This document shows positions 8,319 to 52,125 of a stretch of DNA of 64,000 bases, one piece after another (the stretch's first letter is position 1; each line of letters begins with the position of its first letter). Below the pieces are notes generated by a model. That model worked only from the letters and a program-made list of their open reading frames with translations. It was not told the origin of the DNA and ran no database searches. The translations under genes were made by a program, and so were the position numbers. The stretch spans positions 1,445-65,444 of the forward strand of contig VXMD01000008.1 of the NCBI GenBank assembly GCA_009841255.1. Reading direction: 5' to 3'. Source of the stretch: Candidatus Poribacteria bacterium (GTDB lineage Bacteria; Poribacteria; WGA-4E; WGA-3G).

Positions 8319-8562
8319 GATGGTTATAGGTTGAATACCGCTCCGCTTGCACTCTGTTTTTTTCAGGTTCGTAAACTGGTAGCCTGCAACAATACGCAGA
8401 AATACCCCGGGGAATGCCACACGGCATGAATACCGTTGATTTGAAGCCCACACGGGAGACCTCATACCGTTGATTCTGATTCGCAAAAACACGCAGGCGG
8501 ATATAAGAAACGCCCGTCAGAGTTGAAACGGACGTTGTTCCTCCGCAAGATAAAATTAAAAA
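8319..8562 (+). repeat. Intergenic repeat cluster
   Basis: No gene. It holds a degraded hairpin (GCCTGC..GCAG near 8378), the palindromic stretch GGAATGCCACACGGCATG, and CCCACACGGGAGACCTCATA with a repeated ATACCGTTGATT. The last parts recur at 32440-32515 and, inverted, at 37165-37225. It closes with an upstream copy of the leader box (8543-8562) ahead of the leader at 8563. Confidence 0.6.
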
Positions 8563-8646
8563 CCTGCAACAACGGCGCAGGCGGATGTAAGAGAGGCACA
8601 CCAAAGACAGAACCCACGTTATTTCTCCGCAAGGTAAGATTAAAAA
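8563..8646 (+). promoter_or_regulatory. Leader module ahead of the aldehyde dehydrogenase gene
   Basis: Hairpin CCTGC (8563-8567), loop AACAACGGC, GCAGG (8577-8581). The box CCGCAAGGTAAGATTAAAAA (8627-8646) ends exactly at the ATG 8647. Hairpin to start is 84 nt. AAGG in the box can act as a weak ribosome-binding site. Same module as at 11720, 19453, 33235 and 52041. Confidence 0.7.
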
Positions 8647-10053
8647 ATGGTACATGTTCCAATTCTACGTGCCGGACGTTCCTACAGGAGTCTGAACACC
8701 GTCCGCGTATCGCATATCAAAACGGGTGAACCCTTAGTCGAGGTGAGCCAAGCCAATCGCGGGTTAATAGCGAAGGACCTCCTTGACATCGCACTCCAAA
8801 AGGAAGTGCTTGGACAACGTTCTGCCGCTGAATTAATCTCCATCTGCAAGAAGGCAGCGCTTCTCTTCGCAACGGAGGCGCTGCCGCTTGATGGAACCGT
8901 TCAATCCCCGACAGACTACATCCAACAGGTCTCTGGGACAACCGGTATGCCTGAAGCACTCTGCCAACAGAATCTGTTCAAGATTCAAGGGGTTTTGGAG
9001 AACATAGATACCGTTTTGGATGGACTCACCCGCGGACTTGATTTGGCGGTCCTTGACAAAGGATGGGGCGTCCAAAACGGGCACACCTTGAGTTACGTCT
9101 GTGAGACAGATTCGCTGGGTGCCGTATTGCCCAGCAATTCACCCGGCGTACATTCGTTGTGGGTACCTGCTATCCCTTTGAAAGTACCACTCGTGCTGAA
9201 ACCGGGACGCGAGGAGCCGTGGACGCCGTATCGGATCGCACAAGCGTTTATCGCCGCAGGTGCGCCCGCAGAAGCGTTCAGTTTCTATCCAACGGATTAC
9301 GCCGGTGCCAATGAAATCCTCGTCCGATGTGGACGCTCCATGCTGTTCGGGGGCGGTGCAACCGTCGCGCCGTGGGTGAACACACCGCGTGTCGAAATCC
9401 ATGGCCCCGGACGTAGCAAGGTCATCATCCATGAGGAGGGACAGAACAATTGGGAACAATACCTTGACCTCATCGTGGAATCGGTGGCTAAAAACGGTGG
9501 CAGATCCTGCATTAACGCTTCTGGTGTATGGGTAACGGCGCATGGACGAGAAATTGCCGAGGCGTTGGCAGAACGTTTGGCACGCATCGAACCGAAACCG
9601 TTGGATCATCCAGAAGCGGGAATCGCCGCATGGGCGAATCCGAAGTCTGCACACGGTATCTCGTCTCTGATTGATCGACACCTCAAAGAACCCGGTGCAA
9701 CGGAATTGACAACAGGGGACCGAGTCGTCGAATTGGACGGTTGCACCTTCCTCAGACCCACTGTTATCTGGTGCGACGATGCGGAACACCCGTTAGCGAA
9801 CATAGAATTCCCGTTCCCATTCATGAGTATTGTGGAAGTGCCACCGACACAGTTAGTCGAGGCTATGGGGGCGACGCTGGTTGCCACGGCGATTACAGAA
9901 GACACTTCGCTCGTACGAGATCTCATAGCAACACCGCTTATTGACCGCCTCAATTTAGGGGCAATCCCGACGAATCAGATCTCTTGGGATAGTCCACATG
10001 AAGGGAACCTGTTTGAGCATCTCTATCGGCAGCGCGCGTTTCAGTTTGGGTAA
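8647..10053 (+). CDS. Aldehyde dehydrogenase family / acyl-CoA reductase-like
   Basis: 468 residues. Residues about 160-200 (LPSNSPGVHSLWVPAIPL, then KVPLVLKPGREEPWTPYRIA) correspond to the NAD(P)-binding part of the ALDH fold. GGRSCINASGVWV at about residue 280 supplies the nucleophilic cysteine. The absence of a standard catalytic-glutamate signature and the overall length fit the LuxC/acyl-CoA-reductase side of the superfamily better than ordinary aldehyde dehydrogenases, but I cannot decide between them. Cytoplasmic. The start follows directly on the leader box; there is no separate canonical ribosome site. The next gene, a sulfatase, is 148 bp downstream. Confidence 0.78.
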   Translation: MVHVPILRAGRSYRSLNTVRVSHIKTGEPLVEVSQANRGLIAKDLLDIALQKEVLGQRSAAELISICKKAALLFATEALPLDGTVQSPTDYIQQVSGTTGMPEALCQQNLFKIQGVLENIDTVLDGLTRGLDLAVLDKGWGVQNGHTLSYVCETDSLGAVLPSNSPGVHSLWVPAIPLKVPLVLKPGREEPWTPYRIAQAFIAAGAPAEAFSFYPTDYAGANEILVRCGRSMLFGGGATVAPWVNTPRVEIHGPGRSKVIIHEEGQNNWEQYLDLIVESVAKNGGRSCINASGVWVTAHGREIAEALAERLARIEPKPLDHPEAGIAAWANPKSAHGISSLIDRHLKEPGATELTTGDRVVELDGCTFLRPTVIWCDDAEHPLANIEFPFPFMSIVEVPPTQLVEAMGATLVATAITEDTSLVRDLIATPLIDRLNLGAIPTNQISWDSPHEGNLFEHLYRQRAFQFG

Positions 10054-10118
10054 CCCAACTGCTACCTAATAGGTTTTGAGCGTTAAACACAGATTTTTCA
10101 AAGAAAAGCATCTCTTCA

Positions 10119-10133
10119 CACCCCGTAGGGGTG
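10119..10133. repeat. Small hairpin in the gap before the sulfatase gene
   Basis: CACCCC-GTA-GGGGTG, perfect 6-bp stem. It starts an A/T-rich stretch leading to the sulfatase ATG (10202), which has no clear ribosome site. It may be a regulatory or repeat remnant. Confidence 0.4.
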
Positions 10134-10201
10134 GTATGTCTATAGAAAGTGTTTAAGTTTGGATAGTACCCTAAAGAAAGTAGCCCCTTGGTATCGTAGT
10201 T

Positions 10202-50691: not shown

Positions 50692-50765
50692 TTTTTCAGT
50701 ATGAGCTCCTGCCCTGCTTTCTTAGTTATGGGCTCTTGGACTGTCCTCCATTACATTACGGACAG
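50692..50765 (-). promoter_or_regulatory. Variant leader module ahead of oxidoreductase paralogue 1
   Basis: On the minus strand: stem CTGTCC (50765-50760) / GGACAG (50746-50741), loop GTAATGTAATGGA. The box has diverged to GGAGCTCATACTGAAAAA before the ATG; spacing 74 nt. Same hairpin subfamily as 19453 and 52041. Confidence 0.5.
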
Positions 50766-50821
50766 GTTCTTGGTGGATCATACGTTCCTTTTTAGAGTCG
50801 AACGTGAGTTTTATCGAAAAC

Positions 50822-50870
50822 CACCGCGTAATGGAATGGAGCGGTGACCAGGGTTAATAACTTAAAAACG
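50822..50870 (+). repeat. Degenerate leader-type hairpin without a gene
   Basis: CACCGC (50822-50827), loop GTAATGGAATGGA, GCGGTG (50841-50846), then GTTAATAACTTAAAAACG shortly after. Plus-strand orientation with no start codon; a shortened orphan copy. Confidence 0.45.
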
Positions 50871-50960
50871 TTTCAGGCAGGTTTTGGGTTAATTCGAGCG
50901 TGATTAAGGATTTGTACGGTCTTAACAAAAAAGGGTCTGGAGATGCTAACCACGCGTGCT

Positions 50961-52040
50961 TTAATCTATCTGCCATTCTTTCAAACCGGTTGGGATGGGA
51001 TCGGGACGTTCCGTCGTGCTTTCGATGACGACGTGTTCACGGGTTTCGGAGGATTTATCGAAGGCGCACATCACCTCAAGCACATGGTATGCCAAGGTGC
51101 CGTTTGCGCGATGCGGACGTCCTGAACGGATGGCGGATACCATGTCGATGACACCGATCATCCGGGCATTGTTCGGGAACGGGATTTCCTCTTCTTCCCA
51201 ATCACCGCCTGCGGGACAGACGTTTACGGGACCCCTAAATCCGTTCGGATCGGGGACCGTCATCGAGCCGGTTTCGCCGTAGATTTCGATGCAGGGGAGA
51301 CTGTGCCGCCACATGTCGAAACTCATAATCATCGTGATAATTGCACCGTTCTGGAATTCGAGGGTGCCGGTGAGGTGGGTCGTGATTTTGACGGGGATAC
51401 GCAAGCCTTGCACGGCTTCGCTCGTAGCGACGCGTTCTTCAAAGGCTTTTGTCGTAATCGCAGCGACGCGTTTGACGGGACCGAGGATGTTGACGAGCGC
51501 GGTCACGTAGTAGGGGCCCATATCCAGCATCGGACCGCCGCCGATATCGTAGTAAAATGCTGGGTTCGGGTGCCAACTTTCGTGTCCGTGACCACACATG
51601 AACGCCGTACCAGCGATAGGCTTGCCGATTTTCCCGGCATCCAGTGTCCGCCGCGAGGTCTGGATGCCTGCGCCGAGGAAGGTATCGGGTGCAGAGCCGA
51701 CGCGGAGTCCTTTGTCTGCGGCGGTGTCAATCAATTGCTTTCCGCTTTCGGCGTCCACACCGAGCGGTTTCTCGCTATAGACGTGTTTACCGGCTTCTAA
51801 GACTTGTAAACCGACGTCGACGTGTGCTCTCGGAATCGTGAGGTTCACGATGAGTTCGATCTCATCATCTGCGAGCAATTCATCGACGGTGCATGCGTGA
51901 GAGTTGTATTTCTCGGCTTGTGCCTGTGCGGCTTCCGTTCGGAGGTCGGCACAGGCTTTGATTTCTAAGATGTCGGTTCTTCGTGCGCCCTCAAAGTAGG
52001 CACTGCTAATCGTGCCACAACCAATAATTCCGATTTTCAT
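50961..52040 (-). CDS. Gfo/Idh/MocA oxidoreductase, paralogue 2
   Basis: 359 residues with the same motifs as paralogue 1: GIIGCGTISSAYFEGARRTD, YSEKPLGVD, GGGPMLDMGPYYVTALVNIL and CIEIYGETGSMTVPDPNG. Differences are scattered and mostly conservative, for example TISS versus VISG near the start and CAFDKSSE versus LAFDKSSE near the end. Both end with GLKEW(Q/E)ID. The start directly follows a full leader box, unlike paralogue 1 with its degraded copy, so the two are probably expressed differently. Substrate unknown. Cytoplasmic. Confidence 0.9.
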   Translation of the reverse strand: MKIGIIGCGTISSAYFEGARRTDILEIKACADLRTEAAQAQAEKYNSHACTVDELLADDEIELIVNLTIPRAHVDVGLQVLEAGKHVYSEKPLGVDAESGKQLIDTAADKGLRVGSAPDTFLGAGIQTSRRTLDAGKIGKPIAGTAFMCGHGHESWHPNPAFYYDIGGGPMLDMGPYYVTALVNILGPVKRVAAITTKAFEERVATSEAVQGLRIPVKITTHLTGTLEFQNGAIITMIMSFDMWRHSLPCIEIYGETGSMTVPDPNGFRGPVNVCPAGGDWEEEEIPFPNNARMIGVIDMVSAIRSGRPHRANGTLAYHVLEVMCAFDKSSETREHVVIESTTERPDPIPTGLKEWQID

Positions 52041-52125
52041 TTTTTAAGTATACCTTGCGGATAAATTGCGTAGTTTGACACCGAAAAGTTTTCGTATTCG
52101 AGTCGCCCTCCATTTCATTTCGGGC
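52041..52125 (-). promoter_or_regulatory. Leader module ahead of oxidoreductase paralogue 2
   Basis: On the minus strand: GCCC (52125-52122), loop GAAATGAAATGGA, GGGC (52108-52105), then box CCGCAAGGTATACTTAAAAA (52060-52041) ending at the ATG. Spacing 85 nt. Confidence 0.7.

Follow-up and report, generated by a model that had tools for sequence, protein, structure and literature searches.

Among known bacterial repeats, the GTAG-tagged repetitive extragenic palindromes (REPs) offer the nearest comparison for the sequences treated here. In the available portion of the survey by Di Nocera et al. (2013, PMC3733652), they are described as short stem-loops found in many copies, with GTA(G) on the 5′ side and compensatory changes in the stem; their number differs greatly among related genomes, and their termini lie near genes, to which they can supply stop codons. 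Here, we describe a unit of about 85 nt that recurs in a 64,000-nt stretch (the window) of a 5.73 Mb Candidatus Poribacteria genome assembled in 87 contigs, and in which a hairpin is followed by a spacer and then a conserved box that often ends at a start codon. Set against that portion of the survey (PMC3733652), the unit shares with GTAG REPs the abundance of copies, the GTA(G) stem-loop, the compensatory changes, the swings in copy number and the supply of stop codons, but differs in its length of ~85 nt, its conserved spacer and 3′ box, and its docking on start codons. A GTAG REP is a palindrome of 20–40 bp alone, whereas the Poribacteria unit is conserved from the hairpin base to the end of the box, and the GTAG (or GYAG) tag at the palindrome end is present in about half of the units. 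GTAG REPs also flank the gene of a REP-associated tyrosine transposase (RAYT); the Poribacteria unit was not found beside the RAYT-type genes examined, some of which have another palindrome.

Miniature inverted-repeat transposable elements (MITEs) and REPINs are small, non-autonomous, dispersed units located mostly in intergenic DNA. The Poribacteria unit is likewise small, non-autonomous, dispersed and mostly found between genes, but its ends (GCCTGC.. and ..TTAAAAA) do not form an inverted repeat. Neither the flank composition of 93 parsed copies nor the junctions read in a trio of close species (see below) revealed a target duplication. Palindrome elements derived from IS200/IS605 insertion sequences have a structured end, no terminal inverted repeats and no target duplication, and the unit shares all three traits; it differs in having one strong hairpin only, at its extreme 5′ edge, and in that the number of Y1 transposase genes is unrelated to its own. 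An IS200/IS605 derivative would carry a hairpin at either end and be moved by a Y1 (HUH) transposase; the only candidate for a second hairpin in the unit is a weak one in the box (see below). Spliced-leader relics recycled into dinoflagellate genes are short leader modules, sometimes in tandem, at gene 5′ ends; the Poribacteria unit is a similar 5′-end leader module, but bacterial and with a covarying hairpin of its own. No such element is described in the titles and abstract openings of the literature searched, whose coverage was partial, hence this is weak evidence.

We propose that the units probably form a family of miniature mobile elements that are non-autonomous, begin with a REP-like hairpin and have a 3′ end that doubles as a ribosome-binding site. 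Their anatomy was taken from 862 kb of the same genome, window included, which holds 112 boxes at up to three mismatches; 21 of the 133 box matches had four mismatches and were excluded from this set. Element parsing retained 93 copies, 37 of 130 parses scoring too low to be kept. The unit opens, at its 5′ edge, with a hairpin flanked by GTA; a spacer of 44–45 nt comes next, and then the box, CCGCAAGG followed by about 12 A/T. From hairpin base to box end it measures 82–86 nt in six window copies, a loop insert and a duplicated box excluded. The spacer, which falls into several sequence classes, is 44–45 nt long in 72 of the 93 parsed copies. The three bases before the hairpin are GTA in 48 copies, ATA in 9, GCA in 8, TTA in 6 and others in 22; the first base of the hairpin is mostly G, hence the GTAG-type tag in about half. 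The hairpin is of two types, either GCCTGC-AACAACGGC-GCAGGC or a 4-bp stem around GTAAYGNARTGGA that encloses a further stem of 2 bp. Its loop reaches 25–136 nt in 35 of the 93 copies, in those read out owing to other small repeats. The repeats nested in this way (window 8388–8492 and other copies) include (ACGCAGAAA)n, CCCAAGCAAA and mini-hairpins such as GAATGCCACACGGCATTCATACCGTTGATT, and the outer stem stays complementary around them. There is also a shorter sister module, in which a like hairpin is followed by AGTCYAGGAGC..TTAAAAA and which also ends at an ATG.

The covariation of the stems, claimed in the initial annotation, was confirmed in 75 copies with a GTAA..GGA loop, where 98.0% of the stem cells pair and 82 cells have changes in both partners; the corresponding count was 26.6 ± 5.2 after shuffling and 1–12 when the partner was slid. 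Pairing played no part in choosing these copies, which were selected by loop frame and box and represent 75 of 92 de-duplicated copies (type B); a type-A alignment of 46 of 91 copies was made and not used further. Of five measures taken on this set, two coarser ones did not rise above shuffles (pairs with both-side change, 4 versus 3.5; further pair types, 10 versus 8.8). The CC-GCAA-GG of the box may form a weak second hairpin; it is uninformative here because the copies were selected by that stem. When ungapped mixed alignments were folded with RNAalifold, a stem of two pairs appeared in the box; for one set, two pairs were also placed in the hairpin region. No internal covariation stands out in the two largest spacer classes (alpha and beta), and a second stem in the spacer, suggested by apparent pairing between classes, was dropped as unsupported within either of them.

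The whole genome contains 558 boxes at up to three mismatches, against 4 for the reversed pattern, so that the dispersed repeat of the initial annotation stands, while its figure of seven copies gives way to a far wider distribution. An exact-pattern scan of named genomes found at least 117 loci, and all among the matches listed belong to Candidatus or uncultured Poribacteria. Across 84 genomes of the phylum, box matches occur in 37 of the 38 genomes of the genus (0–558 each); the other 46 have 0–3 each, about the level of the reversed control, at least two of these (G018 and G045) having a full hairpin (loci L153 and L163). High copy number is limited to one genus. Within a single genus, copy number can differ as widely as in the single-contig genomes G079 (no box) and G082 (470 boxes). 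A covariance model (R2) built without the box stem matched all 38 genomes of the genus, including G079 (1) and G083 (8); at most 111 candidates were scored per genome, so these counts are lower bounds. At one locus (L064, OX638352.1, 2651–3522), the module forms a tandem array of seven boxes at an exact spacing of 142 nt.

The unit spreads as one block, with the hairpin base at one end and the terminal A-run at the other. Among the top-ranked near-identical pairs, the common stretch mostly stops no more than 4 nt from the box end or from a second box. Its left end is variable; in three pairs read out, it coincides with the base of the outer hairpin. At orthologous sites (the aldehyde dehydrogenase (ALDH), dipeptidase, dehydratase and ABC genes of the window and further junctions), some genomes have the unit, some lack it and some have one of another class. 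The same start codons can carry no unit, a box only, other classes, or the short sister module with AGGAG, with the same ATG endpoint, and the spacer class at one gene differs between related species. In the trio, three species at ~94% identity, 60 boxes yielded 88 comparable pairs, and those differing by at least 60 nt were read by eye. At seven sites, also judged by eye and where either state could be the older, the partner is free of a box; the right junction lies within 2 nt of the ATG at three of these sites and within 7 nt at two more, while the last two have it elsewhere. The remaining differing pairs are tandem duplications, exchanges, or partners that keep the box or a sister module. 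The difference in genome G065 at the gene encoding MNILTPQEKW sits at the start of that gene. Deletions at short repeats that span hairpin and spacer and stop at the box were read by eye in G066 and G074 and at the dehydratase gene of G073. The boundaries of near-identical copies, the presence and absence at orthologous sites and the range of 0–558 boxes among congeners thus uphold the mobile or copied 5′ untranslated region that had been suggested from the window, and a mobile element seems to have replaced the own leaders of many genes.

For docking, we took the last box of each cluster and asked whether, between −1 and +2 nt from its end, there was an ATG that opened 60 codons or more, using simple gene calls of our own. 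Such an ATG is abutted by 48 of the 107 box clusters in the 862 kb, the start codon always being ATG, against 1–9 for the same test at 24 shifted positions. The remaining clusters lie further upstream of a gene (28), face the stop of a convergent gene (25) or fall inside called genes (6). The statement that the box ends exactly at the start codon therefore applies to 48 of the 107 clusters and has to be qualified for the 25 that face a convergent stop; 18 of these 25 lie within −7 to +2 nt of the stop, and 11 furnish the stop codon itself. In three of the copies further upstream, the box is immediately followed by AGGAG, AAGGAG or AGGAAA. The docking is one-sided: none of the 78 units scored on the hairpin side comes closer than 9 nt to a gene there. 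TTAAAAA sequences outside boxes pass the start-codon test in 33 of 247 cases; some of them are diverged or sister modules and others neither. The initial annotation had named beforehand what would speak against it, namely copies not enriched at start codons, stems without covariation, or boxes that are ordinary A-rich sites arisen by chance; each was checked, and none was found.

The box is most likely a portable ribosome-binding site at many genes, a conclusion drawn from sequence comparison. In 39 of 47 docked genes, AAGG lies 12 nt ahead of the start codon; it is complementary to the 16S tail, which was read in two relatives (G081 and G082, CCTCCTTT / GGATCACCTCCTTTCT), the 16S of the source genome being incomplete. 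Of 109 orthologues scored at four loci, 50 carry the box against the ATG, and a hairpin is still present in 24 of these and missing from 26; 11 of 120 orthologue slots were left unscored, and by eye the hairpin calls include a few miscalls, namely spurious hairpins at the G052 and G059 dipeptidase and the G055 dehydratase genes, and the dipeptidase gene of the window, wrongly counted as hairpin-less with its hairpin behind the duplicated box. The position of AAGG and the box outlasting the hairpin point to this role, and deletions that stop at the box, together with hairpin-less docked boxes, favour the box as the retained, working part. In orthologues without a box, a Shine-Dalgarno (SD)-like motif is found at 16 of 17 dipeptidase and 7 of 7 dehydratase genes. 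Taken with the AAGG position, the 16S tail and the box-keeping deletions, these leaders bear out, indirectly, the supply of a ribosome site that the initial annotation had proposed. We envisage that a block landing against an ATG would replace the native leader, its box becoming the ribosome site of the gene, as position, 16S tail and box retention suggest. After docking, the hairpin and spacer would be free for loss, class exchange, enlargement by nested repeats and tandem duplication (loss and exchange were seen among the orthologues), and the box would stay because translation depends on it. The hairpin most likely would serve the mobility of the unit rather than regulation.

Several results weigh against this interpretation. 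Among hairpin-defined copies, 24 of 26 docked and 36 of 43 undocked ones retain AAGG intact (p = 0.47), so an additional SD constraint in docked copies is not apparent, and hairpin loss in our own sample is no commoner in docked copies (7 of 48) than in undocked ones (16 of 59; p = 0.16). Box-free orthologues have an SD-like motif in only 0 of 19 cases at the ABC gene and 1 of 18 at the 14964 gene. The subfamily with the GCACGC stem has AAGC instead of AAGG. No mobilising enzyme was found when Y1 and reverse-transcriptase counts were compared with copy number. Finally, selection alone could hardly cause so many exact ATG endpoints, nor the 18 of 25 boxes near convergent stops. It is conceivable, if rather improbable, that insertion itself is directed to start codons, for example by an RNA- or ribosome-linked step, and makes the gene's 5′ end a translation leader; by analogy, such units might be to bacteria what recycled spliced leaders are to dinoflagellates. 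Insertion of this kind is compatible with the docking at one end only and with the exact junctions at the ATG in recent present/absent pairs.

Within the window, all five leaders reported in the initial annotation were recovered at their positions, and two further copies are undocked. The genes that follow the docked copies are unrelated, their Pfam matches being Aldedh, Peptidase_M19, MR_MLE, ABC_tran and GFO_IDH_MocA. At up to three mismatches, the box pattern was matched 6 times in the window and never in 100 shuffles. Copy 1 (8382–8562, + strand) is undocked, with arms GCCTGC (8382–8387) and GCAGGC (8493–8498) enclosing a loop of 105 nt (8388–8492) occupied by other small repeats, and a box at 8543–8562. 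Directly after it, copy 2 (8563–8646, +; stem CCTGC/GCAGG, loop AACAACGGC, box 8627–8646) is docked on the ALDH gene, the distance from hairpin start to ATG being 84 nt (8563 to 8647). Copy 3 (11720–11826, +; stem GCCTGC/GCAGGC) precedes the dipeptidase gene (ATG 11826) and has duplicated boxes at 11786–11805 and 11807–11826, the final A of the second being the A of the ATG; its hairpin start at 11721 is 105 nt from the ATG, or 84 nt without the duplicated 21-nt box. Copy 4 (13543–13628, +) is the second undocked one, its box (13609–13628) facing the stop codon of the convergent gene 13630–14964 (−). Copy 5 (19453–19534, −; stem GCCC/GGGC, box 19453–19470) is docked on a mandelate racemase-type dehydratase gene (ATG 19452) at 82 nt from hairpin start (19534).

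Copy 6 (33235–33317, +) is docked on an ABC ATPase gene, with 82 nt from hairpin start (33236) to ATG (33318), and combines a GCACGC/GCGTGC stem with the variant box GCGCAAGCAAAGTTAAAAAA (33298–33317); a degenerate box-like sequence was read shortly 5′ of it (33208–33229, +). A second copy of this GCACGC-stem, GC-GCAA-GC-box subfamily is present in another contig of the genome (C83). Of the 5 species that have a box at the ABC site, 4 retain the GC-GCAA-GC stem of this subfamily, and stem and box varying together hint that the GCAA loop itself may matter. Copy 7 (52041–52125, −; stem GCCC/GGGC, loop GAAATGAAATGGA, box 52041–52060) is docked on a Gfo/Idh/MocA oxidoreductase gene at 85 nt (52125 to 52040). 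This gene belongs to two adjacent open reading frames of 359 aa (49612–52040, −) with a 300-nt stretch in common at 85% identity; one has the long module at its ATG, the other a short module further upstream. Two short sister modules lie back to back at 50719–50763 (−) and ~50824–50870 (+), each a hairpin followed by AGTCCAAGAGC.. or TGACCAGG..TTAAAAA; they are 5′ of the twin gene starting at 50691 (−), and neither touches its ATG. Elsewhere in the window, positions 1–548 hold tandem direct repeats at a spacing of 126–135 nt. The intergenic DNA syntenic with the window in G052, G059, G060, G065, G073 and G082 contains several repeat families and largely differs between species, most of whose genes are 82–91% identical.

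Unlikely, yet the best of the alternatives, is that the units are typical GTAG REPs moved by a RAYT, their adjacency to start codons arising only from compact genomes. The GTA ahead of the hairpin in 48 of 93 copies agrees with this, as do the stem variation and the closeness to convergent stops, which are also features of REPs in the available portion of the survey (PMC3733652). The length of ~85 nt with a conserved 3′ half does not, and neither do the transposase genes. Y1 genes are present in 37 of the 38 genomes of the genus in numbers with no evident relation to box copy number: a single Y1 gene accompanies 521 boxes in G060, and twelve accompany 38 boxes in G081. Around 30 Y1 loci and three Y1 genes of the source genome, the closest box is ~0.6 kb away (in contig C18), and 20 more Y1 stretches, partly overlapping the first set, have boxes in four, at least 1.3 kb from the Y1 gene. 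In 4 of these 20 stretches, a different GTAG palindrome, GTAGGTGCGGTT..AACCGCAC, is found instead on both sides of a gene of Y1/RAYT size (L434, L437, L447 and L450, from contig C32 of the source genome, G082, G052 and G073, respectively), which serves as a positive control. With no unit beside the examined Y1 genes, membership of the REP/RAYT system fails on a defining feature, despite the REP-like head. Reverse transcriptase had no matches in G060, G073 and G082, all of high copy number, and both RAYT/Y1 and reverse-transcriptase sources were set aside, gene number and unit copy number being unrelated.

It is quite doubtful that the unit is a cis-regulatory RNA leader, of a riboswitch- or attenuator-like regulon, in which hairpin and spacer regulate the gene and copies spread as useful regulation. 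Such a leader would account for a covarying stem with a conserved loop, a fixed distance from hairpin to box (the 44–45 nt spacer in 72 of 93 copies) and docking on start codons. It accords poorly with the 26 of 50 docked orthologous boxes that have no hairpin, which also leaves the regulatory role suggested for the hairpin in the initial annotation unsupported. The 25 of 107 clusters that face a convergent stop, the two largest spacer classes without internal covariation and the variation of spacer class at the same gene between related species likewise speak against it. Rfam gave no match in the window at the gathering score, and two copies searched at a permissive E-value gave one weak, chance-level match (an insect small Cajal body-specific RNA, E = 1.4). 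Still less probable is a mobile promoter, with the box hexamer, often TATAAT or TAAAAT and 6 nt ahead of the ATG, as the −10 element of a leaderless mRNA, given that many docked boxes have AAACTT, AAAGTT, TAAACC or TAAATA at the hexamer, that by eye the class consensus shows no −35-like hexamer at 17 nt, and that 31 of 34 scored docked genes are downstream of a same-strand gene and so need no promoter of their own.

The small hairpin repeats dispersed in bacterial genomes are usually viewed as passengers of intergenic DNA. In the present case, many unrelated genes appear to have acquired one end of such an element as their translation start region, and related species display at one gene the states absent, docked, exchanged and worn down to a ribosome site. 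The unit also bears on annotation, since the box indicates which start codon a docked gene uses. Should insertion be start-directed after all, transposition would hand a gene a ready-made translation leader. The Poribacteria units thus may offer a natural system for how mobile DNA captures gene leaders, in which the worth of a ribosome site would be measurable by its retention.

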